Source of the DNA: Deltaproteobacteria bacterium
GTDB taxonomy: Bacteria; Myxococcota_A; UBA9160; PR03
NCBI GenBank assembly: GCA_035063765.1
Contig: JAPSFT010000024.1
Coordinates: 1-57,757, forward strand
Direction: 5' to 3'
Length of the DNA: 57,757 nt
Shown here: positions 30,839 to 45,943 of the stretch, piece by piece
Numbering within the stretch: the stretch's first letter is position 1
Layout: each line of letters starts with the position of its first letter
Notes under the pieces: model-generated
What the model was told of the DNA's origin: nothing
The model's database searches: none
What the model saw: only the letters and a program-made list of their open reading frames with translations
Program-made: the position numbers and the translations under genes

Positions 30839-32251
30839 GTGCCCGCCCACCCCCCGCGCGCCCCGATCCGCTCCCTCGCCGACGCCTCCGCCTGGCTCGA
30901 AGGCCTGATCGACGTCGAGCGCCGCCCGGAGCTGCCCTACCGGCGGCTCGGCCTCGAGCCGGTGCGGCGCCTGCTCGCCCGGCTCGGCGATCCACACGCC
31001 TCGCTCTCGGCCCTCCACGTCGCCGGCTCGAAGGGCAAGGGCTCGACGGCGCTCCTCGCCGAGGCGCTCCTGCGCGCGCTCGGCGAGCGCGTGGGCACCT
31101 TCACCTCGCCGCACCTCGAGCGCTGGACCGAGCGCTTCCGGATCGACGGCCGCGAGGTGGAGGGCGAGCGGCTGGCCGACGCGGTGGCGCGCCTGCGCCC
31201 GCACGTCGAGGCGCTCGCGGCCCAGGACCCCGCGCGGGCGCCCACCTTCTTCGACGCCACGACCGCCGCCGCGCTGCTGCTCTTCGCCGAGGCGGGCGTC
31301 GACCGCGCCGTGCTCGAGGTCGGACTCGGCGGGCGCCTCGACTCGACCAACGTGGTCACCCCCGCCGTCGCCTGCATCACCACGATCGAGCTCGAGCACA
31401 CCGACAAGCTCGGCGCGACGCTGGCCGCGATCGCCGGCGAGAAGGCCGGGATCGTGAAGCGCGGGTGCCCGCTCGTGCTGGGCGCCCTGCCGCCCGAAGC
31501 CCTGGCGGTGGTGCTCGAGCGCGCCGAGGAGCTCGAGGCTCCGGTCGCGCAGCTCGGCCGCGACTTCACGGTGCCCTCGTGCCGGGCCGCGCTCGACGGG
31601 CTGCACGTGACGCTGCGCGACGGGCCGCTCGCGGTGGAGGCCGTGCTCCCCTTGCTCGGCGCCCACCACGCGGCGAACGCGGCGCTGGCGCTGGCCTGCG
31701 TGCGCCGCCTGGGCGCGCACCCCGACCCCGTGCTCGCCGGCGCTGCGCGGCGCGGCTTCGCGAGGGCCGAGCTGCCGGCGCGGGTCGAGGTCGTCGGGCG
31801 CACGCCCTGGCGGATCGTCGACGCGGCCCACACCGCCGCCTCGGCGGCGGCGCTCGCGGAGGCCCTGCGTCTCGTGCCGCGCCGCCAGGCGCACCTCGTG
31901 CTCTCGATCTCGGCCGGCAAGGATCTCGGCGCGATCCTCGCAGCGCTCCTGCCGCTTGCTGCGCAGGTGACCGTGACGCGCGCCGAGCCGGCGCGCTCGC
32001 TGGCGCCCGAGGCGATCGCCGCGGCGGTGCGTGCCGCGGGTCCCGCCGCCGCGCTGCGCGTGGTCCCGAACCCGCATCTCGCGCTGCGGGCGGCCCGCGA
32101 AGGCGCCGGCCCCGACGATCTCGTCGTCGCGAGCGGCTCGGTCTACCTGGCGGGGATCGCGCGCCGCGTCTGGCGCGAGCCGCCGGGCCCGGTGCCGGTC
32201 AGCCGGCGCCGACCGACGCCTTCAGGCGCCGGAAGACCTCGGCGGGCGTGA
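30839..32251 (+). CDS. folC: Folylpolyglutamate/dihydrofolate synthase
   Basis: Adds glutamate to folates (and, in the bifunctional form, makes dihydrofolate from dihydropteroate); 470 residues, slightly long. Mur-ligase-like blocks: ALHVAGSKGKGSTALLAEAL (P-loop), FTSPHLERWTERFRIDG, LEVGLGGRLDSTNVVTP, IELEHTDKLGATLAAIAGEK, and late IVDAAHTAASAAALAEALR. The last 20 or so residues are an Arg/Pro-rich extension that overlaps the end of the convergent GH20 gene by 53 bp. GTG at 30839. Confidence 0.93.
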   Translation: MPAHPPRAPIRSLADASAWLEGLIDVERRPELPYRRLGLEPVRRLLARLGDPHASLSALHVAGSKGKGSTALLAEALLRALGERVGTFTSPHLERWTERFRIDGREVEGERLADAVARLRPHVEALAAQDPARAPTFFDATTAAALLLFAEAGVDRAVLEVGLGGRLDSTNVVTPAVACITTIELEHTDKLGATLAAIAGEKAGIVKRGCPLVLGALPPEALAVVLERAEELEAPVAQLGRDFTVPSCRAALDGLHVTLRDGPLAVEAVLPLLGAHHAANAALALACVRRLGAHPDPVLAGAARRGFARAELPARVEVVGRTPWRIVDAAHTAASAAALAEALRLVPRRQAHLVLSISAGKDLGAILAALLPLAAQVTVTRAEPARSLAPEAIAAAVRAAGPAAALRVVPNPHLALRAAREGAGPDDLVVASGSVYLAGIARRVWREPPGPVPVSRRRPTPSGAGRPRRA

Positions 32252-34148
32252 AGCCCGCGTGCGGCCCGGGCGGGGGCGGCGGGCGGCCGCGCTCGAGGGC
32301 GCGTGCGGCCCGCGCGGTGCTCGCGATCGCGCGCGCGAGGCGCCGGCCGGTGATCTCGTAGTTCGAGGGCCGGCTCCGCGCCAGCCACAGGCGGCGCAGC
32401 CGCGCGCCGAGCCGGCGCTGCTCGCCGGCGAGCGCGGCGAGCTCGCGGGCGAGCGCGCGCCGCGCGCGGCGGTCGAGGCCCGCCGGCCGCTCGCGCCAGG
32501 CGATCCAGCGCCGGCCGGCGAGCGCGCGGCGCAGCGCCAGTGACGAAGCGTCGGCGGCCCAGGTGAGCTCGGCGTGGGTGAGCGCGTCCGCCCCGAAGCG
32601 CCGCCCGGCGGCGGCGAGCCGGGACGCGAATCTTCCGAGCCGCGCCAGCGTGCGGCGGGCCGCCTTCGGCTCGACCCCGCGCACGAACCAGGCCTCGTCG
32701 AGGGTGTCGAAGAACAGGAACTGGAGCGGGGAGCCGTTGAAGATCCGGAAGCCGGCGTCGTGGAGGCCGCCGAGCTCGCGATAGAGCCGCGCCGCCTCGC
32801 CGCTGTCGTCGCCGAAGAGCACGCGGCCGAAGGCGCGGTCGAAGACCGCCTCGGTGGCCGGGCCGCTCCAGGCCTCCTGGGCCGCCCATGCGTAGCCGAG
32901 CCACGAGCCGCCGAGCAGGTTGTAGTGCCCGAAGTCCCCCCAGTCGGTCATCAGGAGGCCCGTCGCGCCATGACGCCGCCCGGCGTCGGCCCAGCGCGAC
33001 ACGTTCGCGAGGGCGTTCTCCATGCGCGGGAAGAGGCAGTTCCAGGACGAGGTGCCGGGGCAGACCCAGAACTCGAGCCCGTGCTTCGCGAACACCCGGA
33101 CGCGGTCGAAGTCGAACTCCGCCTCGTACCACCAGTCGCAGAGCAGGACGTCGCGGTCGAGCTCGGCGATCCGCTCGGGATGGTGGTGGACGAAGTCGGC
33201 CCAGATCATCGGCCGGCGGCCGAGGGAGCGTGCCAGCTCGTGGACCCGCCGCACGTGCTCGAGGAAGAGCCCGCCGGGCCCCAGCGACTCCGCCAGCTCC
33301 CGGGAGCGCCCCTTGCCGAGGTCCCAGGGCTCGTCGCAGTTGGCGTGGAAGAGCTGCGAGCGGAAGTTCGGGACGTACTCCCCGTAGAGGTCGCGCAGCA
33401 GCTCGTAGCTGCGCGGATCGGCGCAGGCGAGCGTCCAGCGCGCGTCGGTCTCGGCCAGCTCCGCGTAGGCGGGCAGCGCCAGCACGTGCTCCATGTGGCC
33501 GAGCGACTGGAGGTTCGGCACGAGCTCGACGTGGCGTTCGGCGGCGTAGGCGTCGAGCGCGCGCAGGGTCTCGGCCTCGAGTCCCCAGGCGCCGGCGCCG
33601 ATCGCGGGGTGCCGGCGCGAGCGGAAGGTGTGCTCGACGTAGAGCATGAGGACGTTGAGCTTCAGCCGGACGCACAGGTCCACGAGCGCGCGCAGCTGGG
33701 CCTCGGTCGGCACCTTGCCGCGCGAGACGTCGAGCAGGATGCCCCGGTACGGGAAGGCGGGCGCGTCGTCGATCTCGCAGGCCGGGAGCCGGCCGCGCGC
33801 GCCGACGAGCTGCCCGAGCGTCTCGACGCCGTAGCGCAGGCCCGCGGGGCCCGCGGCGACGAGCTCGGCACCGCCCGCCGCAACCCGCAGGCGGTAGGCC
33901 TCGCCGGCATCGGCCTCGCGGCGCAGCGCGATCGCCGGCCCGAGCCCGTCCCGCCGCGCGTGGGTCTCGATCGCCAGCCGCACGCCGGCCGCGCGGGCCG
34001 CCGCCTCCTGGAGCGCGCGCGCCGACGCGAAGTCGCGGTCGTCGGAGCCGGCCTCGAGCACGATCGGGAGGCCGTCGCGCAGCGCGAGCTGGCCCGGGCG
34101 GCGCTCGGCACGGCGGGGCGCGGGGAGCAGCGGCGGGAGCGCGGGCAT
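32199..34148 (-). CDS. Glycoside hydrolase family 20 beta-hexosaminidase-like enzyme
   Basis: Removes terminal N-acetylhexosamine residues by substrate-assisted catalysis. The protein has 649 residues and no clear signal peptide, so it may be cytoplasmic. An N-terminal GH20b-like domain (GPAGLRYGVETLGQLVG) precedes the TIM barrel: YRGILLDVSRGKVPTEAQLR, VPNLQSLGHMEHVLALP and the catalytic Asp-Glu pair D272-E273 in FHANCDEPWDLG; then MIWADFVHHHP and a WNCLFPRMEN segment. The C-terminal 170 residues are helical and Arg-rich. Its C-terminus overlaps folC by 53 bp tail to tail. A CadC-like regulator diverges 150 bp away and may control it. Confidence 0.85.
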   Translation of the reverse strand: MPALPPLLPAPRRAERRPGQLALRDGLPIVLEAGSDDRDFASARALQEAAARAAGVRLAIETHARRDGLGPAIALRREADAGEAYRLRVAAGGAELVAAGPAGLRYGVETLGQLVGARGRLPACEIDDAPAFPYRGILLDVSRGKVPTEAQLRALVDLCVRLKLNVLMLYVEHTFRSRRHPAIGAGAWGLEAETLRALDAYAAERHVELVPNLQSLGHMEHVLALPAYAELAETDARWTLACADPRSYELLRDLYGEYVPNFRSQLFHANCDEPWDLGKGRSRELAESLGPGGLFLEHVRRVHELARSLGRRPMIWADFVHHHPERIAELDRDVLLCDWWYEAEFDFDRVRVFAKHGLEFWVCPGTSSWNCLFPRMENALANVSRWADAGRRHGATGLLMTDWGDFGHYNLLGGSWLGYAWAAQEAWSGPATEAVFDRAFGRVLFGDDSGEAARLYRELGGLHDAGFRIFNGSPLQFLFFDTLDEAWFVRGVEPKAARRTLARLGRFASRLAAAGRRFGADALTHAELTWAADASSLALRRALAGRRWIAWRERPAGLDRRARRALARELAALAGEQRRLGARLRRLWLARSRPSNYEITGRRLARAIASTARAARALERGRPPPPPGPHAGFTPAEVFRRLKASVGAG

Positions 34149-34298
34149 GGCCGCGCAAGCTAGCCCAGCGACGCCGCGCCGTGGCAAGGACCCCTGGCTC
34201 GCGAGCGGTGGTGCACGCACCCTGGCGTCCCGCCGGTGGGTCGCAGCGGTGCGGGCAGGTACCTTCGGCGCGGCTGGCCGCCTCGCCCGGAGGGTTGC

Positions 34299-36050
34299 GT
34301 GTCGCGAGGGCTCGAACGACGAGCGGTCCACTTCGGTGCGTTCCGGCTCGAGCCCGACGGCCGGCTGCTCCGCGAGGCCACCTCCGTTCCGATCGCGCCC
34401 AAGGAGGTCGCGCTGCTGCGCCTCCTGATCGGCGCCGAAGGCCGCGTGGTCCCGAAGCAGGAGATCCTCGACCGCCTCTGGCCCGGCGAGGAAGTGGCGG
34501 AGGCCAGCCTCACCAGCTGCGTCCACGGCATCCGTCTCGCGCTCGGGGACCGCGGGCGGCGCGGTCGATACCTCGAGACCGTTCATGGCCGAGGCTACCG
34601 GTTCACGGCGGCGGTACGGTGGGGCGAGGACCGGGCGCAGGACGCGAGCCGGACCCGGGTCGCCGTGGCCCCCTTCACCGCCGAAGCCGAGGACGACGCC
34701 TACCTCGCGCACGGTCTCGCGGCCGAGGTCACGTCGCGCCTCGCGCGCTGGCACGACGACGGGATCGACGCCATCGCGCACCAGCCGACGGCCTCCCGCG
34801 CGGCGTCCGGCCTGGACGCGCTCCGCCTCGCGAAGGAGAGGCAGGCCGCCTTCCTCGTGCTCGGCCACGTGCGGCCGGGCGGCCGGGAGACCCTCGTGCG
34901 CGCCGAGCTGGTGCGCGTCCACGACGAGGTCGTCGTCTGGTCCGAGGAGATCGTGAAGCCGCCGAGCGCGACGGCGAGCGTCGCGGCCGACATCGCGGAG
35001 GCGGTCGCCAAAAGGCTGGTCGACCTGCGGGGGAGCGCCTTCACCTCGCGTAGCACGCCGCCGACGGCGCAGGACCCCCGCTCGTACCACGCGCTCCTAC
35101 GCGGCCAGTTCCTCAACCAGCTCCGCACGGAGATCGGACTGCGCCGCAGCATCGTCTGCTTCGAGCAGGCGCTCGGGTGGGATCCCGGCTGTGCCGCCAT
35201 CCACACCGCGCTCGCCGAGGCCCATCTGAATCTCGCATGGCGCGGCTTCGAGCCGCCGCGCGAGATGGCGTCGAAGGCCCTGGCGTCGATCACCCGTGCG
35301 CTCGATCTCGAGGGTCGGAACGCCGCCGCGCTCGCGTTGCTCGCGTTCCTCCGCGTCACGATCGACCTCGACGCGCGCTCGGCCGAGGACGCCCTCGTGG
35401 CGAGCGCGACCGGGAGCGAGAGCGACCGCGTCTCCTGGCTGCGGGCCAATGCCTTCGTCGCGATGGGGCGCTTCGACGCAGCGCTCGCGACCGTCGAGGC
35501 GGCGCTCGAGGTCAACCCCTTCTCCCCGAACCTCGCGGTCTCGCGGGTGCTCGCCCTCTGGTGCGGCGGACACGATGACGAGGCGCTTCGCGCCGCCCGG
35601 GCGCTGGTGGCGGCGGAGCCCGAGTTCCCGAGCGGACACGCGATCCGATCGTGTGTCGCCGGGACGATGGGGCTCTCCGGGGAGAGCCTGCGTGCCGCCG
35701 AAGCCGCAGACGGTCTCGCGCGGGGCGATCAGCTCACGCGCAGCGCCTGCGCCTGGGCCTTCGCCCGCGCGGGCCGCGCCGACGCGGCGTGGACCATCCT
35801 CACCACGCTCGAGCGGCGCGGTGCTCACCGCTACGTCTCCCCGACCTGCGTCGCGGTCGGCTACGCCGGCCTCGGCGACGCCGACCGCGCCCTCGAGTGG
35901 CTGGCACGGGCGCGCGAGCTGCGCTGCATGTGGCTGCCCTTCGCGGCCGTCGACCCGCGGTTCGCGCTCCTTCGCGAGCGCGCGGCCTTCCGCGCTGCGA
36001 CCGCGTGGACGGCGCCGCCGGCCCGGCCGCCGGCGGCCCGTCCAGGCTGA
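34299..36050 (+). CDS. CadC-like winged-helix regulator with TPR-type C-terminus
   Basis: A 583-residue transcription regulator. The N-terminal OmpR/CadC-type winged helix has HFGAFRLEPDGRLLREATSV, PKEVALLRLLIGAEGRVVPK, QEILDRLWPGEEVAEASLTS and GRYLETVHGRGYRFTA. A TolB-like segment follows (RTRVAVAPFTAEAEDDAYLA), then about 330 residues of TPR-like helical repeats (YHALLRGQFLNQLRTEIGLR onwards). No membrane helix, so it differs from classic CadC. GTG at 34299 has CGGAGGG upstream. Divergent from the GH20 gene with a 150-bp shared promoter region, so it could regulate that enzyme. Confidence 0.85.
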   Translation: MSRGLERRAVHFGAFRLEPDGRLLREATSVPIAPKEVALLRLLIGAEGRVVPKQEILDRLWPGEEVAEASLTSCVHGIRLALGDRGRRGRYLETVHGRGYRFTAAVRWGEDRAQDASRTRVAVAPFTAEAEDDAYLAHGLAAEVTSRLARWHDDGIDAIAHQPTASRAASGLDALRLAKERQAAFLVLGHVRPGGRETLVRAELVRVHDEVVVWSEEIVKPPSATASVAADIAEAVAKRLVDLRGSAFTSRSTPPTAQDPRSYHALLRGQFLNQLRTEIGLRRSIVCFEQALGWDPGCAAIHTALAEAHLNLAWRGFEPPREMASKALASITRALDLEGRNAAALALLAFLRVTIDLDARSAEDALVASATGSESDRVSWLRANAFVAMGRFDAALATVEAALEVNPFSPNLAVSRVLALWCGGHDDEALRAARALVAAEPEFPSGHAIRSCVAGTMGLSGESLRAAEAADGLARGDQLTRSACAWAFARAGRADAAWTILTTLERRGAHRYVSPTCVAVGYAGLGDADRALEWLARARELRCMWLPFAAVDPRFALLRERAAFRAATAWTAPPARPPAARPG

Positions 36051-36089
36051 AGCCGCGCGAGGCCTGTGTCCCGCGATCCGAGCCGCCCG

Positions 36090-36785
36090 CTACGCCGGGT
36101 TCGACAGGTCGGGGCGGTAGACCGTGATCGAGCGCTGCGCCTCCTCGATCCCCTCCATGGCGTTGCGCCAGATCAGACCGCCCTCCGCCGCGCCGAAGGC
36201 TTCGGTGAGCAGCCCGGCGGGTGTGCGCTGCGCGTCGAGGTCGGCGAGCGCCGCCATCGGCCGCACGGTCCAGAGCGTGCGCAGGTCTCCGATCACGGTC
36301 TGGTACGAGACCAGGCGCGCCGGATCGTCCACCTTCGGGATCGCCTCGGACAGCTTGCGGAGCAGCTCCTCGATCGCTTCCTGGTGGCCCGGCCGGCCGC
36401 GCACCAGCGTGACCATCGCGAACGGCAGCGACGAGGCGTCGCGGGAGTCGGGCGGGTAGCCGAGATCGGGGCGCTCGAGCGAGACCGTGTTGCGCACGGC
36501 CGTGGACATCTCCTCGGCCTGCTCGCGGAACTGCGCAGCCTGTTTCGTGCCGAGCACGCGCTCGATCAGCTCGGGCGTCGAGCCGCGGGTGGCGAAGCCG
36601 GCGAAGGTCTCGCTGCGCGAGACGAAGTGGTAGCCGGCCGTTTCGCCCATCACCGTCTGGTGTGCGTCCCAGCGGAACCTCTCCTTGGCGGCGGCGGCCT
36701 TCTTCGCGAGATCCGCGACGAGCTCTTCGTAGCGGCGGTTGGCGCCCGGGCGCACCTGGATCGAAAGCACGTTGACGAGGGACAT
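36090..36785 (-). CDS. NIPSNAP/dimeric alpha-beta-barrel-like protein
   Basis: A 231-residue cytoplasmic protein whose two halves look like repeated ferredoxin-like alpha/beta domains. N half: VNVLSIQVRPGANRRYEELV, HQTVMGETAGYHFVSRSETF. C half: LPFAMVTLVRGRPGHQEAIE, ARLVSYQTVIGDLRTLWTVR. The starting strand-helix pattern (V-x-V-x-P-G-x-x-x-x-Y-E-x-x) is shared with NIPSNAP and antibiotic-monooxygenase-like proteins. No cofactor motif is visible. ATG at 36785 with GAAGGAGA upstream. Function unknown. Confidence 0.55.
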   Translation of the reverse strand: MSLVNVLSIQVRPGANRRYEELVADLAKKAAAAKERFRWDAHQTVMGETAGYHFVSRSETFAGFATRGSTPELIERVLGTKQAAQFREQAEEMSTAVRNTVSLERPDLGYPPDSRDASSLPFAMVTLVRGRPGHQEAIEELLRKLSEAIPKVDDPARLVSYQTVIGDLRTLWTVRPMAALADLDAQRTPAGLLTEAFGAAEGGLIWRNAMEGIEEAQRSITVYRPDLSNPA

Positions 36786-37279
36786 GTCCCGTCTCCTTCG
36801 GGGGCAAGGCTCGATCGACGAGAGACCGCAGGGCGGACGGCAGGCGGGGTGGGGCTCGCGCCGCGACGAAGGGGAGGTCGTCGCAGCCCGTGATGCGGCG
36901 CCGGAAGACGGGCGGAGCCCGCACGGCGGGAGCCTCCAGACCCGACTCTGCGCCCGTTCTCCGCGCCGGGTCAACCGGGAAGAACGTGCGAACGGACCGG
37001 GCGGTCCGAGCTTCTGGTTTCCACATCCGCGGGGGGAGGGACGGTCTCGTCGCCGAGCAGGTCGCAAGGGGGTCCGGGTGCCGGGGTGGCGACCGACGCG
37101 ACGGGTGCCGCCGCGACCGCGTGGACGGGGCTCCGCCGGCCCGCCTGCCGGCGCCCCGCGCCCGGGCGGACGCAGCGCTCAGAACCGGATCAGGATTCCC
37201 GGAGCGGCCGCCCGTAGGGTCGGTCGAAGCGGCGGGGCCCGACCCACACCGGCCCCATCGACCCATCCGGGGAGGCACC
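36786..37279. other. Divergent intergenic region before the sulfatase gene
   Basis: About 490 bp, no convincing gene. It has a 16-bp palindrome CGGACC-GGGC-GGTCCG (36993-37008) that could be an operator, and on the minus strand a GGTTGACC near 36970 that might serve as a -35 for the NIPSNAP-like gene without a good -10. GGGGAGG before 37280 is the sulfatase ribosome site. Confidence 0.5.
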
Positions 37280-38851
<1,572 letters not shown>

Positions 38852-39088
38852 GCCCCCTCCGAGGCCGCTGCGCGTGCTTCGAGGCGCGCGGCGGCCTCCC
38901 TCCTTCCGGGACCCGCGCCACAGCCACGCGGGGTCGGGACGATGCGCGTCCCGGCGCCGCCCGCTCCGGGCTGCTCTCGCCTCGGGGTCGGCTCCCCTCG
39001 TGCGCGCCGCGAGGCCTCGGTACCGTCGCGGTGGCGGCCGACGGGCCCGGTGGCCGCGCGATGCAGCGCGGACGGTGTGGCCCCCGGT
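38852..39088. other. Intergenic region between the sulfatase gene and the tandem-repeat block
   Basis: 237 bp with no convincing gene or promoter. Together with the repeat-bearing stretch to 39231 it forms a 380-bp gap if the small membrane ORF at 39089 is not real. No hairpin with a T-tract follows the sulfatase stop. Confidence 0.5.
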
Positions 39089-39235
39089 GTGCGAGCCGAT
39101 CGGGCTCGTGCTCGGATCGCGGAGGGCGTGATCGCGGCGGGCGGGGTCGCGGCGGTCGGGGTCGTGGCGGTCTGGGTCGTGGCGGTGGTGATCGCGGTGG
39201 TCGGGGTCGCGGCGGTCGGGGAGGGACGGCGATGA
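39089..39235 (+). CDS. Possible 48-residue membrane peptide made from a tandem repeat
   Basis: An open frame from GTG 39089 ending in TGA 39233-39235, which overlaps the next gene's ATG as ATGA, the junction form used repeatedly here. The product is basic at the start (RADRARARIAEG), then one strongly hydrophobic stretch of Val/Ala pentads (GVAAVGVVAVWVVAVVIAVV), then EGRR. That is a perfect single-span membrane peptide, encoded by the 15-bp repeat at 39136-39225. There is no clear ribosome site, and a repeat of this composition could give such a frame by chance. Low confidence. Confidence 0.3.
   Translation: MRADRARARIAEGVIAAGGVAAVGVVAVWVVAVVIAVVGVAAVGEGRR
39136..39225. repeat. 15-bp tandem repeat, about six imperfect units
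   Basis: Six consecutive 15-base units based on GGCGGTCGGGGTCGT, at 39136, 39151, 39166, 39181, 39196 and 39211, in perfect register, the last degenerating into the ribosome site. It lies just upstream of the heme propeller gene (ATG 39232). It could be a translated linker, a regulatory array or a length-variable element. Confidence 0.85.
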
Positions 39236-41031
39236 GCACGCTCGCGAGACGCTGCGGGCTGGCGGTCCTCGCACTCGGGGCAGCGGTCCCGGGCCTGGCG
39301 TCCGCTGCCGGGCTCGACGGGCGCCTCCACGGTCCCGACGGCGCGCCGATCGTCGGGGCACGCGTGACGGCGGAACGCGGCGCGCCGGCGCGCGGCACGA
39401 CCGTGTTCTCGGACGCGGACGGGCGCTTCCGGGTGGAGGATCTCGCGCCGGGCGACTGGCAGCTGCGCGTGCGCCGCATCGGCTGGCGCGACCTGGGCGC
39501 CCGGGTCAGCGCCCCGAGCGCCGGGCTCGCCCTCGCCCTCGAGCCCGAGACCGATCCCGCCGCGCTGGCCGAGCAGCTTCCGGCCAACCGCTGGTTCGCG
39601 CTCTTCCTCGAGCAGATCGAGACGCCCTGGCAGCGCGAGCAGTTCGTGCGCCAGTGCACCTACTGTCACCAGCAGGGCAGCGCGGCCACGCGCGTGCCGC
39701 GCGAGGACTGGCAGTGGGAGAAGGTGCTCTCGCTGATGGCGCGCCTCGGCGGCGGGCTCTCGCCGGAGGTGCGCGCGCAGGTGCCGGGCTGGTTCCGCGC
39801 CGCCTACGAGCCGTCCCACGCGGTCCCGCGCCTGACCGCCGGGATGGGCACGGCGGCCTTCGCCCCGCCGCCGCCCGAGGAGGTGCGGCGCGCGGTGATC
39901 GACGAGTGGGTGCTCGGCGGCCGCGCCTCGATGCAGCACGATCTGACGGTCCACCCGAGCGGACACGTCTACTCCGTCGACATGATGCAGGACACGCTGT
40001 TCCGGCTCGATCCCGAGAGCGGCGCGACCGAGAGCTTTCCGATTCCCGACGACGGGCTCCCGCTCGGCGGGGTCTTCGCCACCAGCGGCGCGCCGCTGGT
40101 TCCGAACGCGAATGCGCACGTCGGGCCGCACTCGCTGCAGGTGGCGCCCGACGGCTCGCTCTGGGTCACGCTGGCGCTCGGCAACCGCCTCGGCCGCTTC
40201 GACCCGGCGACCGGGCAGTGGAAGCTCTACGCGATGAGCGAGGGCTACTACCCTCATACGCTGCGCATCGACGGCGGCGGGCGCATCTGGTTCACGATCG
40301 CCGGCTCGAACCACGTGGCGCGCTTCGATCCGGCGCAGGGGCGCTTCGACACGATCCGCCTGCCGGCCCAGGGCCTCCAGCAGGAGGTGATGCTGCGGCT
40401 CCTGCCCTTCGCGATGTGGCTCTCCCGGTACGTCGACCTGCCGCTCGAGGCCGGCGAGGGCGTCGCGAACATGCCGATCCCCTACGGCATCGACATCGCG
40501 CCGGACGGCGACGTCTGGTTCAGCCAGCTCAATGCCCACCGGATCGGGCGCGTCGATCCCGGGACGCTCGCGGTCGAGCTGGTCGACACGCCGTTCACGG
40601 CCCCGCGCCGGCTGCGCTTCGACTCGCAGGGGCGCTTGTGGATCCCGGGCTTCTCGTCCGGGGTCGTGTCCCGTTTCGATCCGGCGACGCGCGCCTTCGA
40701 GAGCTGGGAGATCCCGGTCGAGCCGAAGGGCGCCGACACGCCGTACGCCCTGCACGTGGATCGCCGCACCGACGTGGTGTGGATCTGCGGCACCAACAGC
40801 GACACCCTGATCCGCTTCGACCCCGCCCGGGAGTCGTTCCTCGTCTACCCGCTGCCGACCCGCGTCACCTACACGCGTGAGCTCGACTTCGACGAGCAGG
40901 GCCGCGTCTGGACCTCGAACTCGAATACGCCCACCTGGCAGATCGAGCGGGGCGAGCCCCGTGTGATCCGCCTCGATCCCCGGCTCGGCGAGGCGCCCCG
41001 GCAGGCGAGCGCGCGGGCGGGCCTCCCTTGA
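39232..41031 (+). CDS. Exported heme-bearing streptogramin-lyase-like (Vgb) beta-propeller protein
   Basis: A 599-residue exported protein with signal peptide LAVLALGAAVPGLASA. Domain order: a carboxypeptidase-regulatory/Ig-like domain (about 25-105; GLDGRLHGPDGAPIVGARVT, FRVEDLAPGDWQLRVRRIGW); a short cytochrome c domain with one heme site C142-T-Y-C-H146 and MARLGGG after it; then a six- or seven-bladed propeller resembling virginiamycin B lyase (SLWVTLALGNRLGRFDPATG, GRIWFTIAGSNHVARFDPAQ, GDVWFSQLNAHRIGRVDP, GRLWIPGFSSGVVSRFDPAT). ATG at 39232 has GGGGAGGG upstream. The next gene, a cytochrome c, is coupled by TTGA. Probably a periplasmic redox or lyase protein; substrate unknown. Confidence 0.82.
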   Translation: MSTLARRCGLAVLALGAAVPGLASAAGLDGRLHGPDGAPIVGARVTAERGAPARGTTVFSDADGRFRVEDLAPGDWQLRVRRIGWRDLGARVSAPSAGLALALEPETDPAALAEQLPANRWFALFLEQIETPWQREQFVRQCTYCHQQGSAATRVPREDWQWEKVLSLMARLGGGLSPEVRAQVPGWFRAAYEPSHAVPRLTAGMGTAAFAPPPPEEVRRAVIDEWVLGGRASMQHDLTVHPSGHVYSVDMMQDTLFRLDPESGATESFPIPDDGLPLGGVFATSGAPLVPNANAHVGPHSLQVAPDGSLWVTLALGNRLGRFDPATGQWKLYAMSEGYYPHTLRIDGGGRIWFTIAGSNHVARFDPAQGRFDTIRLPAQGLQQEVMLRLLPFAMWLSRYVDLPLEAGEGVANMPIPYGIDIAPDGDVWFSQLNAHRIGRVDPGTLAVELVDTPFTAPRRLRFDSQGRLWIPGFSSGVVSRFDPATRAFESWEIPVEPKGADTPYALHVDRRTDVVWICGTNSDTLIRFDPARESFLVYPLPTRVTYTRELDFDEQGRVWTSNSNTPTWQIERGEPRVIRLDPRLGEAPRQASARAGLP

Positions 41032-41429
41032 GGGCGCGAGCGGCGGCGCGGGCCGCGGGCCTGCTCCTCGTGCTCGGCGCGCCGGCGGCCGGCGAGGCGG
41101 TGGAGGCGGGTCCTGCCGCGGCGCTTCCGGGCCAGGCCCTCTACGCCGAGCACTGCGCCCTCTGCCACGGCGTGGAGGGGGGTGGCGACGGGCCGGCGGG
41201 GCTCCCGCTCGTGCCGATGCCGCGGGACTTCCGCGTCGGTCGCTTCAAGTTCGACGCGGACGGGGACGGCCGCACCGGCACGGATCGCGACCTCTTCCTG
41301 GTGATCCGCGACGGAGCCGGCGCCGTCGGCGGGAATCCCGTGATGGCGCCCTGGGGTCAGCTCGGCGAGCTGCGCATCCACGAGCTCGTCGCCTACGTCC
41401 GCAGCCTCGAGCGACACCAGGCGCCGTAG
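41028..41429 (+). CDS. Exported c-type cytochrome
   Basis: A 133-residue monoheme cytochrome c. The TTG at 41028 overlaps the preceding stop (TTGA). Signal peptide GLLLVLGAPAAGEA, heme site HCALCHGVEGGGDGPAGLPL (Cys43, Cys46, His47), then PMPRDFRVGRFKF and a likely methionine ligand in GNPVMAPWGQL, ending in the usual helix LVAYVRSLE. Also contains a calcium-loop-like DADGDGRTG. Almost certainly the electron partner of the heme propeller protein in the same unit. Confidence 0.88.
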   Translation: MRARAAARAAGLLLVLGAPAAGEAVEAGPAAALPGQALYAEHCALCHGVEGGGDGPAGLPLVPMPRDFRVGRFKFDADGDGRTGTDRDLFLVIRDGAGAVGGNPVMAPWGQLGELRIHELVAYVRSLERHQAP

Positions 41430-41964
41430 CCACGCGGCCGTATCGCCGGCCCCACCCGCCCGCTGCTCGCAGGCCGTGCGCCGCGCACGGCGCAGAGCGA
41501 CGCGCGCCGGACCAGAGCGATGCGCCCGGACCGGCACCCAGCACCGAAGTGCTGGGGGAGGGGTTGCCAGTCCGGGCGCGGTGGACCGCGAGGCTCTGTG
41601 TTGTGCCAGGGAGTAGAGCAATCGGCGTGCCCAACGCGCGCGAGTACGGAATCGGGCGCACGAGCGGGTGATCGGGCAGCGCATGCGCAGGACGGGTCGC
41701 CGCCGCGGCAGTCGATCGGCAGGGTCGGTGCAGGCGCTCGAGGGCGGTGACGCAAAGTTCGTCACCACCGGAGCGCGCTTCGTCTCCGGGGTCGAGATCG
41801 AAACCGCCCCGATGCGCTGCGCCCGCCGTCGGCTCGCTGCGCGGCGCCTCCGGCCCCTCGCGGGCCGCGCACCTCGCGGCCCGGGAAGAGGGCCGCCCGC
41901 CCGCAGGACGCCGGCGGGAGCAGGCGGCCGGCTCGCTGGCCTCCGGGAGGGCGCAAGGGTTACC
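41430..41964. other. 535-bp intergenic region before the GH36-HAD fusion gene
   Basis: No convincing gene. It contains the nested stem-loop at 41522-41579, a palindromic hairpin GGTGACG...CGTCACC (41746-41766) with a CAAAGTT loop, and GC-rich simple sequence from 41800 to 41930. AAGGG at 41955-41959 is the ribosome site for the GTG at 41965. A promoter was not evident. Confidence 0.6.
41522..41579 (+). ncRNA. Nested stem-loop, possible structured RNA
   Basis: An outer perfect 10-bp stem (41522-41531 with 41570-41579) encloses a 4-bp helper stem (GGCA with TGCC, 41533-41536 and 41565-41568) and an inner perfect 8-bp stem CCCAGCAC/GTGCTGGG capped by a CGAA tetraloop (41545-41548). An unpaired GGAGGGG lies on the 3' side of the inner stem. 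No T-tract follows, so it is not a standard terminator. It could be a leader element, an RNA processing site or a protein-binding structure. Confidence 0.45.
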
Positions 41965-44592
41965 GTGCGGGCCATGCCGGCGCTCCGAGATCCGGCGGGC
42001 GGCGTCCTCGAGCCGGTCCGCCTCTTCGCCCGCAGCCGCGAGGCGGGACGCGAGGCGTTCCACGAGCTGCCGCTCGCAGCCGGCGAGCTCGCGTGCGGGC
42101 CGCTGCGGGTGCGGCTCGCCGTCGAGGGGGCGGGGGACTGCGCGACCTGGCGCGCGCGGGTGCGCAACGCCGGCCCCGATCCGCTCGCGGTCGACGCGAT
42201 CGGGATGGGCTTCCGCTGGCGCGCGCCCGGCGCGGCCGCGGCGCCGGGCTGGCGGCTGCTGCGCCAGGGCTTCCAGTCCTGGTCGTTTGCCGGCGGTGTC
42301 GCGCTCGACGACGCCGGGACGCCGCCCTTCCCGTCGGGCCCCTGGCTGCGCGGCTTCCACCACGCCCACTTCGCGCCGCCCGCGGACCGCGCCGGCTGGC
42401 ACGAGTCCGACGGCGCCGCCGTGCTGAGCGCTCCGGGCGGACCCGCCTGCCTGGCCGGCGTGCTCGAGAGCGGCCGCGCCTTCGGCACCGTCTTCGTGCG
42501 CCGCGAGGGCGGGGCCCTGCGCGTCGAGCTCGAGCAGCGGCTCGAGCGCGTGCTCGCGCCCGGCGCGGCGTGCGAGCTCGAGCCGATCCGCCTCGAAGCG
42601 GGCGCGGACGCCGCGGCGCTCCTCGAGGCCTTCGCCGACGCCCACGGCGCCTTCGCGCGCGCCCGGCGCTTCGCGCCCTTCCAGGCCGGCTGGTGCTCCT
42701 GGTACCACTTCTTCCACGACGTCACCGAGGTCGGCTTCCTGCGCAACCTGGCCGCCCTCGCCGCCGCCCGCGACGAGGTGCCGATCGACCTCGTGCAGCT
42801 CGACGACGGCTGGCAGCGCGCGATCGGCGACTGGCTCGAGACGAACGTGAAGTTCCCGAGCGGCCTGGCGGCGATGGCGCACGCCGTGCGCGACGCCGGC
42901 TTCCACGCCGGGCTGTGGACGGCACCGTTCTGCGTCGTGCCCGAGAGCCGCGTGCTGGCCGACCACCCCGACTGGCTCCTGCGCGAGGTCGAGACCGGCG
43001 AGCCGCTGCGCGGCCTCCATCACGGCACGTGGACGAAGGACGGCTGGGTGTTCGTGCTCGACCCGACGCACCCGGCGGTCTCCGTCCACCTCGAGCACAC
43101 CTACCGCACGCTCTCCGAGATGGGCTTCTCCTATCTGAAGCTCGACTTCCTCTACGCCGCAGCGCTCCAGGCTTCCGCGCGCGACCCGCACGCGACCCGC
43201 GCCGAGCGCCTGCGCCGCGGCCTCGAAGCGGTGCGCAGCGGCGCCGGTGAGCACGCCTTCCTGCTCGGCTGCGGCTGTCCGCTCGGGCCGGCGGTCGGGC
43301 TCGTGGACGGCATGCGCATCGGCCCCGACACCGGCCCGCACTGGGAGCCGCTGCCGGTGACGCGGATCCCGGGCCTCGAGCCGGCCGTGCCGGCCGGCCG
43401 CAACGCGCTGCGCAACACGCTCGCGCGCGCCTGGATGCACCGCCGGCTCTGGCTCGACGACCCCGACTGCCTGATGACCCGGGTCGTGGACTCGCAGCTC
43501 AGCCGCGACGAGGTGCGCGCGCTCGCGATCTCGATCGCCGTGACCGGCGGCATGGTGCTCCTCTCCGACGACGTGCCCGCCCTCGGCCCCGGCGAGCGCG
43601 CGCTCGTGCGCGAGACGATCGAGCTCGCGCGCGAGGTGGACGAGGCCGGGCAGGCCGGAGCCGCGCGCGCCCTCGACCCGGCCGGCGACGAGATCCCCCG
43701 GGTCGTGACGGCGCGCGCCTTCGGCGACCGCCTCGTCGCGCTCTTCAACCCGGGCGACGAGCCCGCCTCCGTCACGGTGGCGCGCGCCGCCGTCGCCGCC
43801 GCCGCGCCGGGCCGGCTCGCCGACGCCCCGGCCGAGCCGCTCCTCGGCTCGCCGCCGGCCGCGGAGTCGCAGGGCCGGATCACCGTCGCGCTGCCGCCGC
43901 ACGGCGCCGCGCTCTACCGGCTGCGCGGCGCGCCGGCGCTCGTCGTGTTCTGCGACTACGACGGCACCTTCGCGGTGCAGGACGTGGGCTCGACGCTCGC
44001 GCGCCGCCACGCCGGCGCACGGCGCGCCGCGCTGTGGCCGCGCCTCGAGCGCGGCGAGCTGACGGCCTGGGAGTACAACCTGGAGCTGCTCGACGGCCTG
44101 CGCCTCCCGGAAGCCGAGCTCGAGGCCTTCCTGCGCACGGTCGAGCTCGATCCGGGTGCCCGCGAGCTGGTGGCCTGGTGCGAGGCGCGCGGGATCCCGT
44201 TCCGCGTCCTCTCCGACGGCTTCGACCGCAACCTCGACCGGCTCCAGGAGCTGCACGGCGTGCGCTTCGCCTACGACGCCAACCACCTGCGCTACGAGCA
44301 CGGGGCCTGGCGGATCGCTGCCGGCCATCCGAGCGACGGGCGCTGCGATTGCGGCACCGGCGTGTGCAAGCGCTCCCGCATCGAGCACTTCCGCGCCCGG
44401 CACCCGGGCGTGCCGGTGGTGCACATCGGCAACGGCCGCGTCTCGGACCTGTGCGCCGCCCTCGCGGCCGACCTCGTCTTCGCCAAGGACTCGCTCGCCG
44501 ACGAGCTCGACGAGCGCGGCATCGCCTACCGGCGCTTCGCGACCCTGCACGACGTCGTCGCGGGGCTCGCGGCACGGCTCGCGGAAGGCTAG
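41965..44592 (+). CDS. GH36 alpha-galactosidase fused to a HAD-family phosphatase
   Basis: An 875-residue fusion. The N-terminal part (about 1-655) is a GH36 alpha-galactosidase-like enzyme: WRLLRQGFQSWSFAGGVAL, FQAGWCSWYHFFHDVTEVGF, DLVQLDDGWQRAIGDWL, FHAGLWTAPFCVVPES, nucleophile Asp394 in YLKLDFLY, acid/base Asp455 in DGMRIGPDTGP, and a C-terminal beta domain ending ALPPHGAALYRL. The remainder (about 658-870) is a HAD-IB phosphatase like MtnX/phosphoserine phosphatase: CDYDGTFAVQD (Asp664, Asp666), FRVLSDGFDRNLDRLQ, CDCGTGVCKRSRIEHFR and VVHIGNGRVSDLCAALAADL (Asp828). No signal peptide. GTG at 41965 has AAGGG 5 bases upstream; ATG at 41974 is the alternative. Confidence 0.9.
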   Translation: MRAMPALRDPAGGVLEPVRLFARSREAGREAFHELPLAAGELACGPLRVRLAVEGAGDCATWRARVRNAGPDPLAVDAIGMGFRWRAPGAAAAPGWRLLRQGFQSWSFAGGVALDDAGTPPFPSGPWLRGFHHAHFAPPADRAGWHESDGAAVLSAPGGPACLAGVLESGRAFGTVFVRREGGALRVELEQRLERVLAPGAACELEPIRLEAGADAAALLEAFADAHGAFARARRFAPFQAGWCSWYHFFHDVTEVGFLRNLAALAAARDEVPIDLVQLDDGWQRAIGDWLETNVKFPSGLAAMAHAVRDAGFHAGLWTAPFCVVPESRVLADHPDWLLREVETGEPLRGLHHGTWTKDGWVFVLDPTHPAVSVHLEHTYRTLSEMGFSYLKLDFLYAAALQASARDPHATRAERLRRGLEAVRSGAGEHAFLLGCGCPLGPAVGLVDGMRIGPDTGPHWEPLPVTRIPGLEPAVPAGRNALRNTLARAWMHRRLWLDDPDCLMTRVVDSQLSRDEVRALAISIAVTGGMVLLSDDVPALGPGERALVRETIELAREVDEAGQAGAARALDPAGDEIPRVVTARAFGDRLVALFNPGDEPASVTVARAAVAAAAPGRLADAPAEPLLGSPPAAESQGRITVALPPHGAALYRLRGAPALVVFCDYDGTFAVQDVGSTLARRHAGARRAALWPRLERGELTAWEYNLELLDGLRLPEAELEAFLRTVELDPGARELVAWCEARGIPFRVLSDGFDRNLDRLQELHGVRFAYDANHLRYEHGAWRIAAGHPSDGRCDCGTGVCKRSRIEHFRARHPGVPVVHIGNGRVSDLCAALAADLVFAKDSLADELDERGIAYRRFATLHDVVAGLAARLAEG

Positions 44593-44596
44593 GGCG

Positions 44597-45943
44597 GTGG
44601 CCACGGTCGTGGTGGTGGGCGCCGGCCTCGCCGGGCTCGCGGCGGCCGCGCGCCTCGCCGCCGCCGGCCAGCAGGTGCAGATCCTCGAGCGCGCCGGCCG
44701 GGCCGGCGGGCGCGCGGCCCTGGCCCTGCACGGAGAGCGCGTGATCGACCCGACCGCGGCACGCGTCTCGACCGGCGACCGGGCGCTGCTCGCGCTGGTG
44801 CGCGAGGCCGGGCTCGGGTCCGAGCTGCTGCCGCTGCGACCCTGGCTCGCCGCCCAGCTTTGCGCGGGGAGCGCCGGGTTCGGGCCCGTCGCCGACGGGG
44901 AGCCCTGGGAGGTGGCGCGCACGCCGGGGGTTCGCAGGCGCGACGCCTGGCGCCTGCTCCGGCTCCCGCGCCTCGCGGCCCGCTATGCGCCGCACCTCGA
45001 CCCGGCCTTCGCGGAGCGGGCCGCGCCGCTCGACGACCGCTCGCTGCGCGACTGGGGCTCGCTCTACTTCGGCCGCAGCGTCGTCGAGCGCTGGCTCGAG
45101 CCGTGGCTCACCGAACGCGCCCCGGCCGACGAGCGCGAGGCGAGCCGCGCGGCGTTCCTGCTGCGCTGGGCGCCCGAGCAGCGGAGCGAGGCCGGTGCCC
45201 TGCGCGAGCCGCCGGGCCTCCTGGCGGAGCGGCTCGGCGCGCGGCTCGGCGTGCGGCTCGCCTGTGCCGCCGGTGCCGTCGCGCCGCGGGCGGAGGGTGG
45301 GCTCACGGTCGCGCTCGAAGGCGGCGGGGCGCTCGCGGCCGACGCGGTGGTGCTCGCGGTGCCGGCCGCCGAGGCGCTCCGCCTCGGCGCTCCGCTCTGG
45401 GTCTCGGCCGAGCGCGACGTGCTCGCCGCCGCCCGCTGCGACGCCGCGATCACCTGGGTCGGCGCGACGCGCCCGCTGCCGGTCTCGGCGCCGACGCGCG
45501 TGCGGGTGCCGCGCGCGGAGGGCTCGCCGCTCGCGCTCGTGGCGCTCGAGCCGGAGCCCGCGCGCACGGCCGGCGAGATCGGCAGGGGGCGGGTCACGGC
45601 CCTGGCCCGTGAGCCCTGGAGCACGGCGCACCTGGACGCGCCGGACGACGTCGTCGCCAAGCCGCTGGTCGAGGCGATCGCGCGCATCCTCCCCGGCGGG
45701 CTCGAGCCCCCGGGAGACGCGATCGTGTGTCGATTCCCCGCGGCCTGGCCCCGCTTCGATGTGGGCAGCTTCCGCCGGCTCGCGCGCCTGCGCGCGGCGC
45801 AGGCGGACCGCCGCGCGGCCGGCCGGCGCCTCTACCTGGCCGGCGACTGGCTCGCGGCCCCCACGCTGGAGGGCGCCGTCGCGTCGGGACGCCGTGCGGC
45901 GGAGGAGGTGCTCGCCGACCTCAACGCAGCGCGACCTGGGTGA
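44597..45943 (+). CDS. FAD-dependent amine-oxidase/protoporphyrinogen-oxidase-like protein
   Basis: A 448-residue Rossmann flavoprotein. FAD-binding start VVVVGAGLAGLAAAARLAAA followed by a Glu-Arg at the end of the second strand and RAGRAGGRAA (the GGR block of amine oxidases). Near the C-terminus LYLAGDWLAAPTLEGAVASG matches the FAD-contacting motif of protoporphyrinogen oxidase and phytoene desaturase relatives, and EEVL ends the last helix. GTG at 44597 follows the fusion gene by 4 bp, so they are probably one unit. The end overlaps mutS2 by 23 bp. Substrate uncertain: carotenoid, porphyrin or amine. Confidence 0.85.
   Translation: MATVVVVGAGLAGLAAAARLAAAGQQVQILERAGRAGGRAALALHGERVIDPTAARVSTGDRALLALVREAGLGSELLPLRPWLAAQLCAGSAGFGPVADGEPWEVARTPGVRRRDAWRLLRLPRLAARYAPHLDPAFAERAAPLDDRSLRDWGSLYFGRSVVERWLEPWLTERAPADEREASRAAFLLRWAPEQRSEAGALREPPGLLAERLGARLGVRLACAAGAVAPRAEGGLTVALEGGGALAADAVVLAVPAAEALRLGAPLWVSAERDVLAAARCDAAITWVGATRPLPVSAPTRVRVPRAEGSPLALVALEPEPARTAGEIGRGRVTALAREPWSTAHLDAPDDVVAKPLVEAIARILPGGLEPPGDAIVCRFPAAWPRFDVGSFRRLARLRAAQADRRAAGRRLYLAGDWLAAPTLEGAVASGRRAAEEVLADLNAARPG

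Follow-up and report, generated by a model that had tools for sequence, protein, structure and literature searches.

Why should a single bacterial polypeptide carry a GH36 glycosidase at one end and a phosphatase of the HAD superfamily at the other, and do the two halves work on the same molecule? The question is raised by a locus of an uncultured Myxococcota bacterium (contig JAPSFT010000024.1), analysed here as a stretch of 57,757 nucleotides that we call the window. A first-pass annotation of the window had described a GH36 alpha-galactosidase joined in one open frame to a HAD domain resembling MtnX and phosphoserine phosphatase, and this description holds up. The plus-strand frame from 41668 to 44592 has no internal stop, and Pfam places Melibiase (PF02065, aa 261-395, 53.5 bits against a cut-off of 27) and HAD (PF12710, aa 661-832, 36.3 bits against a cut-off of 27) on the same chain. 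The likely start, set by homologous N-termini, is the ATG at 41974, where the relatives' N-terminal pattern M..x.RHxxAGxLEPxRLGVR lines up; a GTG lies 9 bp upstream, and residue numbers of the fusion protein are counted from that GTG. The gene and its domains are laid out as follows.

41974..44592, plus strand: GH36-HAD fusion gene, 872 aa from ATG 41974; alternative start GTG 41965
41974..42650, plus strand: N-terminal beta-supersandwich of the GH36 half, about aa 4-228 (AlphaFold2 strand pattern; QSWS motif)
42660..43635, plus strand: GH36 (beta/alpha)8 catalytic barrel, about aa 233-557 (PF02065; TmGalA 1zy9; Foldseek 6gvd)
43640..43920, plus strand: C-terminal beta-domain of the GH36 half, about aa 560-652, followed by the linker of about 6 residues (AlphaFold2 secondary structure)
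43930..44592, plus strand: HAD-IB (MtnX-like) phosphatase domain, aa 656-875 (PF12710; TIGR01489; HAD-SF-IB; Foldseek MtnX 2fea)

The AlphaFold2 model predicts one compact protein (pLDDT 93.2, pTM 0.93), so that the structure prediction suggested by the first-pass annotation returned a single confident body. The linker of about 6 residues runs between a strand at 645-650 and the next strand at 657-661 in the numbering of the model. The QSWS motif of the supersandwich (aa 104-107) is nearly invariant among the fused proteins. No signal peptide was seen by eye in the fusion, and the protein is therefore read as cytosolic.

A frame error joining two adjacent genes, or split genes in all relatives, had been named beforehand as what would undo the fusion. 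Both were looked for in the relatives and neither occurred. Of the 80 genomes from the window's order, about 40 have the two domains in the same frame (35 with a continuous match and 5 as two pieces), and contig ends split GH36 from HAD in 2 further genomes of the 80. A second species of the genus carries the fusion at full length with 75% identity to that of the window, far beyond what chance would give, and NCBI contigs from independent assemblies of Myxococcota and Deltaproteobacteria MAGs have the same fused architecture. An error of frame or assembly is ruled out by the roughly 40 independent fused genomes. One fused copy, in a MAG that is 67% complete (G005), has a single internal TGA. 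The search for the domain architecture and its neighbours thus found the fusion across the order, in a syntenic locus and with a single GH36 clade: in the GH36-domain tree all fused copies group together with an SH-aLRT of 100, apart from the unfused GH36s of Chloroflexota and from those of the sister order, which sit at a different locus. A very divergent, long-branched GH36 of the same order (G006) also falls inside the fused clade, although its placement is unsure. Because all fused GH36 domains form one clade, the tree most likely records a single fusion event, in the ancestor of this Myxococcota order. Repeated independent fusion is unlikely, since the fused GH36s make up one clade and the junction is constant.

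The residues expected to carry out catalysis in the GH36 half were placed by alignment with TmGalA, the GH36 alpha-galactosidase of Thermotoga maritima.

43144..43146, plus strand: Asp394, catalytic nucleophile (TmGalA Asp327), in YLKLD; alignment, invariant in 31 fused proteins
43327..43329, plus strand: Asp455, acid/base (TmGalA Asp387), in RIGPD; alignment, at least 90% conserved in the 31 fused proteins

TmGalA (PDB 1zy9, 5m0x) matches this half with an E-value of 6.7e-71 for 1zy9, and in a Foldseek comparison the GH36 half aligned with TmGalA 6gvd at an E-value of 5e-46 and a TM-score of 0.84 on target length. The supersandwich, barrel and beta-domain of the GH36 fold are all present in the AlphaFold2 model and by Foldseek. 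In TmGalA galactose is bound by Trp190, Tyr191, Asp220, Asp221, Trp257, Lys325 and Arg383, together with Asp327 and Asp387 (PMC5132143; also PMC6089974). The alignment finds this subsite fully kept in the fusion, as W246, Y247, D280, D281, W318, K392, R451, D394 and D455. Among its relatives, the GH36 half stands nearest to hydrolases of the TmGalA/TtGalA type. TmGalA differs from the fusion in being without a C-terminal HAD domain, and the two share about 29% identity; the nucleophile, acid/base and galactose subsite are the same, and the GH36 half is probably a retaining alpha-galactosidase of the TmGalA type.

The HAD half likewise has a full set of motifs, which were compared across 54 fused and stand-alone HADs.

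43954..43962, plus strand: HAD motif I, nucleophile Asp664 and Asp666 (CDYDGT); invariant in the 54 fused and stand-alone HADs
44212..44214, plus strand: HAD motif II, Ser750 (VLSDG); invariant in the 54 HADs
44368..44370, plus strand: Lys802 (CxCGTGxCK), candidate for motif III; invariant
44446..44448, plus strand: Asp828, HAD motif IV (GNGRVSD; the first acidic position is Asn823); invariant in the 54 HADs

Three invariant cysteines, Cys794, Cys796 and Cys801, adjoin Lys802 in the CxCGTGxCK loop. The aspartates and the VLSDG serine are thus all where the first-pass annotation had put them, in complete catalytic sets, and the sets of both halves are conserved across 31 fused proteins, which argues that neither half is decaying. 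As to family, the HAD domain alone scores 48.6 bits with the HAD-IB profile TIGR01488, above the cut-off of 45; the window's protein scores 72 bits with the MtnX-like HAD-IB profile TIGR01489, just under the cut-off of 81.55, and all 54 aligned HADs match TIGR01489 at E<1e-3. MtnX, the 2-hydroxy-3-keto-5-methylthiopentenyl-1-phosphate phosphatase (PDB 2fea), is the nearest relative in the PDB both in fold (Foldseek TM-score of 0.86, with phosphoserine phosphatases next) and in sequence, and it shares with the HAD half the HAD-IB motifs and a Cys-rich loop ahead of the motif III lysine. With the MtnX equivalog model, however, the HAD half reaches only 71.8-76.9 bits against a cut-off of 292. 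The MtnX salvage pathway requires acireductone dioxygenase, whose family (PF03079) is above cut-off in just 2 of the 80 genomes of the order and not in the window's genome. The low score and an order nearly devoid of the dioxygenase exclude in practice a function in methionine salvage. The HAD half would be a small-molecule phosphomonoesterase with an aspartyl-phosphate mechanism.

Each half is thus of a familiar type, and it is the architecture that is undescribed in the sources searched. The first-pass annotation knew of no standard enzyme with this layout, and none has turned up since: neither the literature searched nor the PDB matches contained a GH36-HAD fusion, and the plasmid collection held no place covering at least 80% of the fusion query and no second lineage. 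The nearest precedent is RgAgaSK of Ruminococcus gnavus, in which a GH36 alpha-galactosidase is fused to a sucrose kinase (PMC7688924). There, too, GH36 is linked to a second catalytic domain that handles phosphate, and the two activities are separable (PMC7688924). The likeness goes no further: the partner of RgAgaSK is a kinase instead of a HAD phosphatase, and the window's protein falls outside the AgaSK kinase-domain definition. RgAgaSK also belongs to a different GH36 subgroup (2yfn, TM-score of 0.55) and to a gut RFO gene cluster.

The distribution of the two halves within the order is far from equal. About 72 of the 80 genomes retain the HAD half; it stands alone in about 29 of these 80, at the same locus where examined, and is absent from 8, with one more locus cut by a contig end. 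No clear case of GH36 retained without HAD was seen in the 80 genomes, and upstream of the stand-alone HADs there were no GH36 remnants at meaningful E-values. In a species proxy tree built from MutS2 and the FAD gene, fused and HAD-only genomes are interleaved, and the GH36 state changes at least 8 times. Since GH36 changed this often while HAD stayed, the conserved core is the HAD half, whereas GH36 is an optional part that was lost several times.

The gene that follows the fusion had been given a part of its own in the first-pass annotation, as the third activity of a pathway.

44597..45943, plus strand: FAD-dependent amine-oxidase-family gene, HpnE-like (PF01593; synteny)

It does start, with a GTG at 44597, 4 bp past the stop of the fusion, just as the annotation had it, and in many relatives, too, it lies a short way behind HAD. 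The order of the syntenic locus is patatin, TANGO2, a 108-aa Cys protein, FolC, MFS, GH20 (opposite strand), homocysteine S-methyltransferase (divergent), HAD with or without GH36, the FAD oxidoreductase, MutS2 (opposite) and a MurQ-like SIS protein. In 12 fused loci, however, HAD is separated from FAD by two genes of the other strand, one with a PspC domain and one for an ECF sigma factor. Genome G034 has its FAD gene about 18 kb from HAD, and the FAD-MutS2 pair also occurs in the sister order and in 5 genomes of this order that lack HAD. The 4-bp spacing is therefore best taken as an inherited neighbourhood, and the FAD gene is probably a syntenic neighbour and not a third pathway step. Co-transcription of HAD and FAD in the window's genome is possible. 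The locus showed neither a partner nucleotide-sugar synthase nor a transporter.

Several other features of the region may be recorded here. The PspC-domain gene between HAD and FAD carries a zinc ribbon (e.g., L093, L094, L100, L102). The 108-aa paired-cysteine protein between TANGO2 and FolC (L086:15741-16064) occurs in at least 25 syntenic loci and has no Pfam match. The GH20 hexosaminidase-like gene lies upstream of the fusion on the minus strand (window 32199-35090) and is kept in many relatives with and without GH36. Between it and the fusion, the window has an insertion of several kb (35090-41965) that is absent from the sister species; the homologous stretches flanking it are 8.1 kb apart in the window and 0.8 kb apart in the sister species. 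The insertion holds regulator-like sequence, an arylsulfatase (36890-38848), a Vgb-lyase-like protein with a CarboxypepD_reg domain (39031-41031) and a cytochrome c (41028-41429).

How, then, might the two halves work together? The explanation that we favour, and hold to be somewhat more probable than not, is a cytosolic two-headed enzyme with a phosphatase core and an optional alpha-galactosidase feeder, the FAD gene contributing no third step. The GH36 half would free galactose from a cytosolic alpha-galactoside and feed the galactose or the aglycone into a route in which the HAD half, as the general step, would dephosphorylate a sugar phosphate or polyol phosphate belonging broadly to that route. 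The two heads would share place and dosage, with no obligatory passing of one intermediate between them; such an obligatory hand-over is unlikely, given that cells have dropped the GH36 head while retaining the HAD. That both halves would serve one route at all is suggested solely by the single, long-kept fusion.

The model put forward in the first-pass annotation was a stricter one, in which a single phosphorylated galactoside is processed by one half after the other, with the FAD enzyme taking a third step. Its appeal is easy to see, given a single ancient fusion with a short linker and both halves intact, and an FAD gene so close behind in the window and in many relatives. Neither part of it fared well against the genomes of the order: GH36 was repeatedly lost without loss of HAD, which speaks against obligatory sequential action, and the intervening PspC and ECF sigma genes and the persistence of FAD-MutS2 where HAD is absent speak against the three-activity pathway, so that we regard the model as unlikely. 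An equally small chance is given to the proposal that the HAD half is simply the phosphoserine phosphatase of the order, to which GH36 became fused without metabolic linkage. SerB shares the HAD-IB fold and motifs with the HAD half, the HAD is nearly universal in the order, and SerB itself is above cut-off in only 10 of the 80 genomes, the remaining 70, including that of the window, being below it. Yet true SerB and the HAD half coexist in the same genomes, with at least 9 of the 10 SerB-positive genomes (G013, G044, G053, G078, G085-G090) still holding the HAD. The HAD half scores a mere 17-21 bits with the SerB equivalog model against a cut-off of 144.15, while other HADs of the window's genome come closer at 48.7 bits, and its nearest fold is MtnX and not phosphoserine phosphatase.

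A role in synthesis has also to be considered, with GH36 as a transgalactosylase and the HAD stripping phosphate from a phosphorylated acceptor, in the manner of the two-domain synthase/phosphatase pairs for compatible solutes such as galactosyl-glycerol compounds. Phosphatase fusions are common in solute synthesis, and some GH36 enzymes are transferases, such as the plant galactinol-dependent enzymes, with 7exg among the PDB matches. The nearest relatives of this GH36 are hydrolases, however, and the locus is without the synthase or transporter partner, which leaves the proposal rather improbable. The galactose metabolism of the order invites two further readings. A galactokinase (GalK) signature is present in 57 of the 80 genomes, including that of the window, where galK lies among protease genes and not in a galactose operon (G000:C19; L148:4610-5788); for GalT, two models found nothing in 79 of the 80 genomes. 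From this gene content, the Leloir route of the order appears incomplete, with GalK but no GalT. The HAD could then serve overflow or detoxification by handling galactose-1-phosphate or a related sugar phosphate, but it is also kept in genomes with no GalK match (e.g., G045, G020, G016), and the association of GalK with GH36 is not robust on the tree; we consider this very improbable. The raw counts do differ (GalK in 32 of 42 fused and 13 of 29 HAD-only genomes, Fisher p 0.012), and GalK was rejected as a correlate of GH36 when the association was lost after correction for relatedness. Similarly doubtful, if marginally less so, is a bolder version in which the fusion would be a dedicated galactoside/galactose-phosphate enzyme of a non-Leloir route: galactose would be released in the cytosol and phosphorylated by GalK, and the HAD would complete a new branch as a specific phosphatase, whose substrate might be, for instance, a phosphorylated galactoside or polyol.

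Whichever substrates the phosphatase core and its optional alpha-galactosidase feeder may use, the locus gives a much-studied family of glycosidases an undescribed two-enzyme architecture, one that is fixed throughout an order of uncultured Myxococcota. It raises two testable gaps for that order, namely the fate of galactose without GalT and the enzyme that replaces SerB. The repeated loss of one half is a natural experiment, which shows which half of the fusion the cells need.
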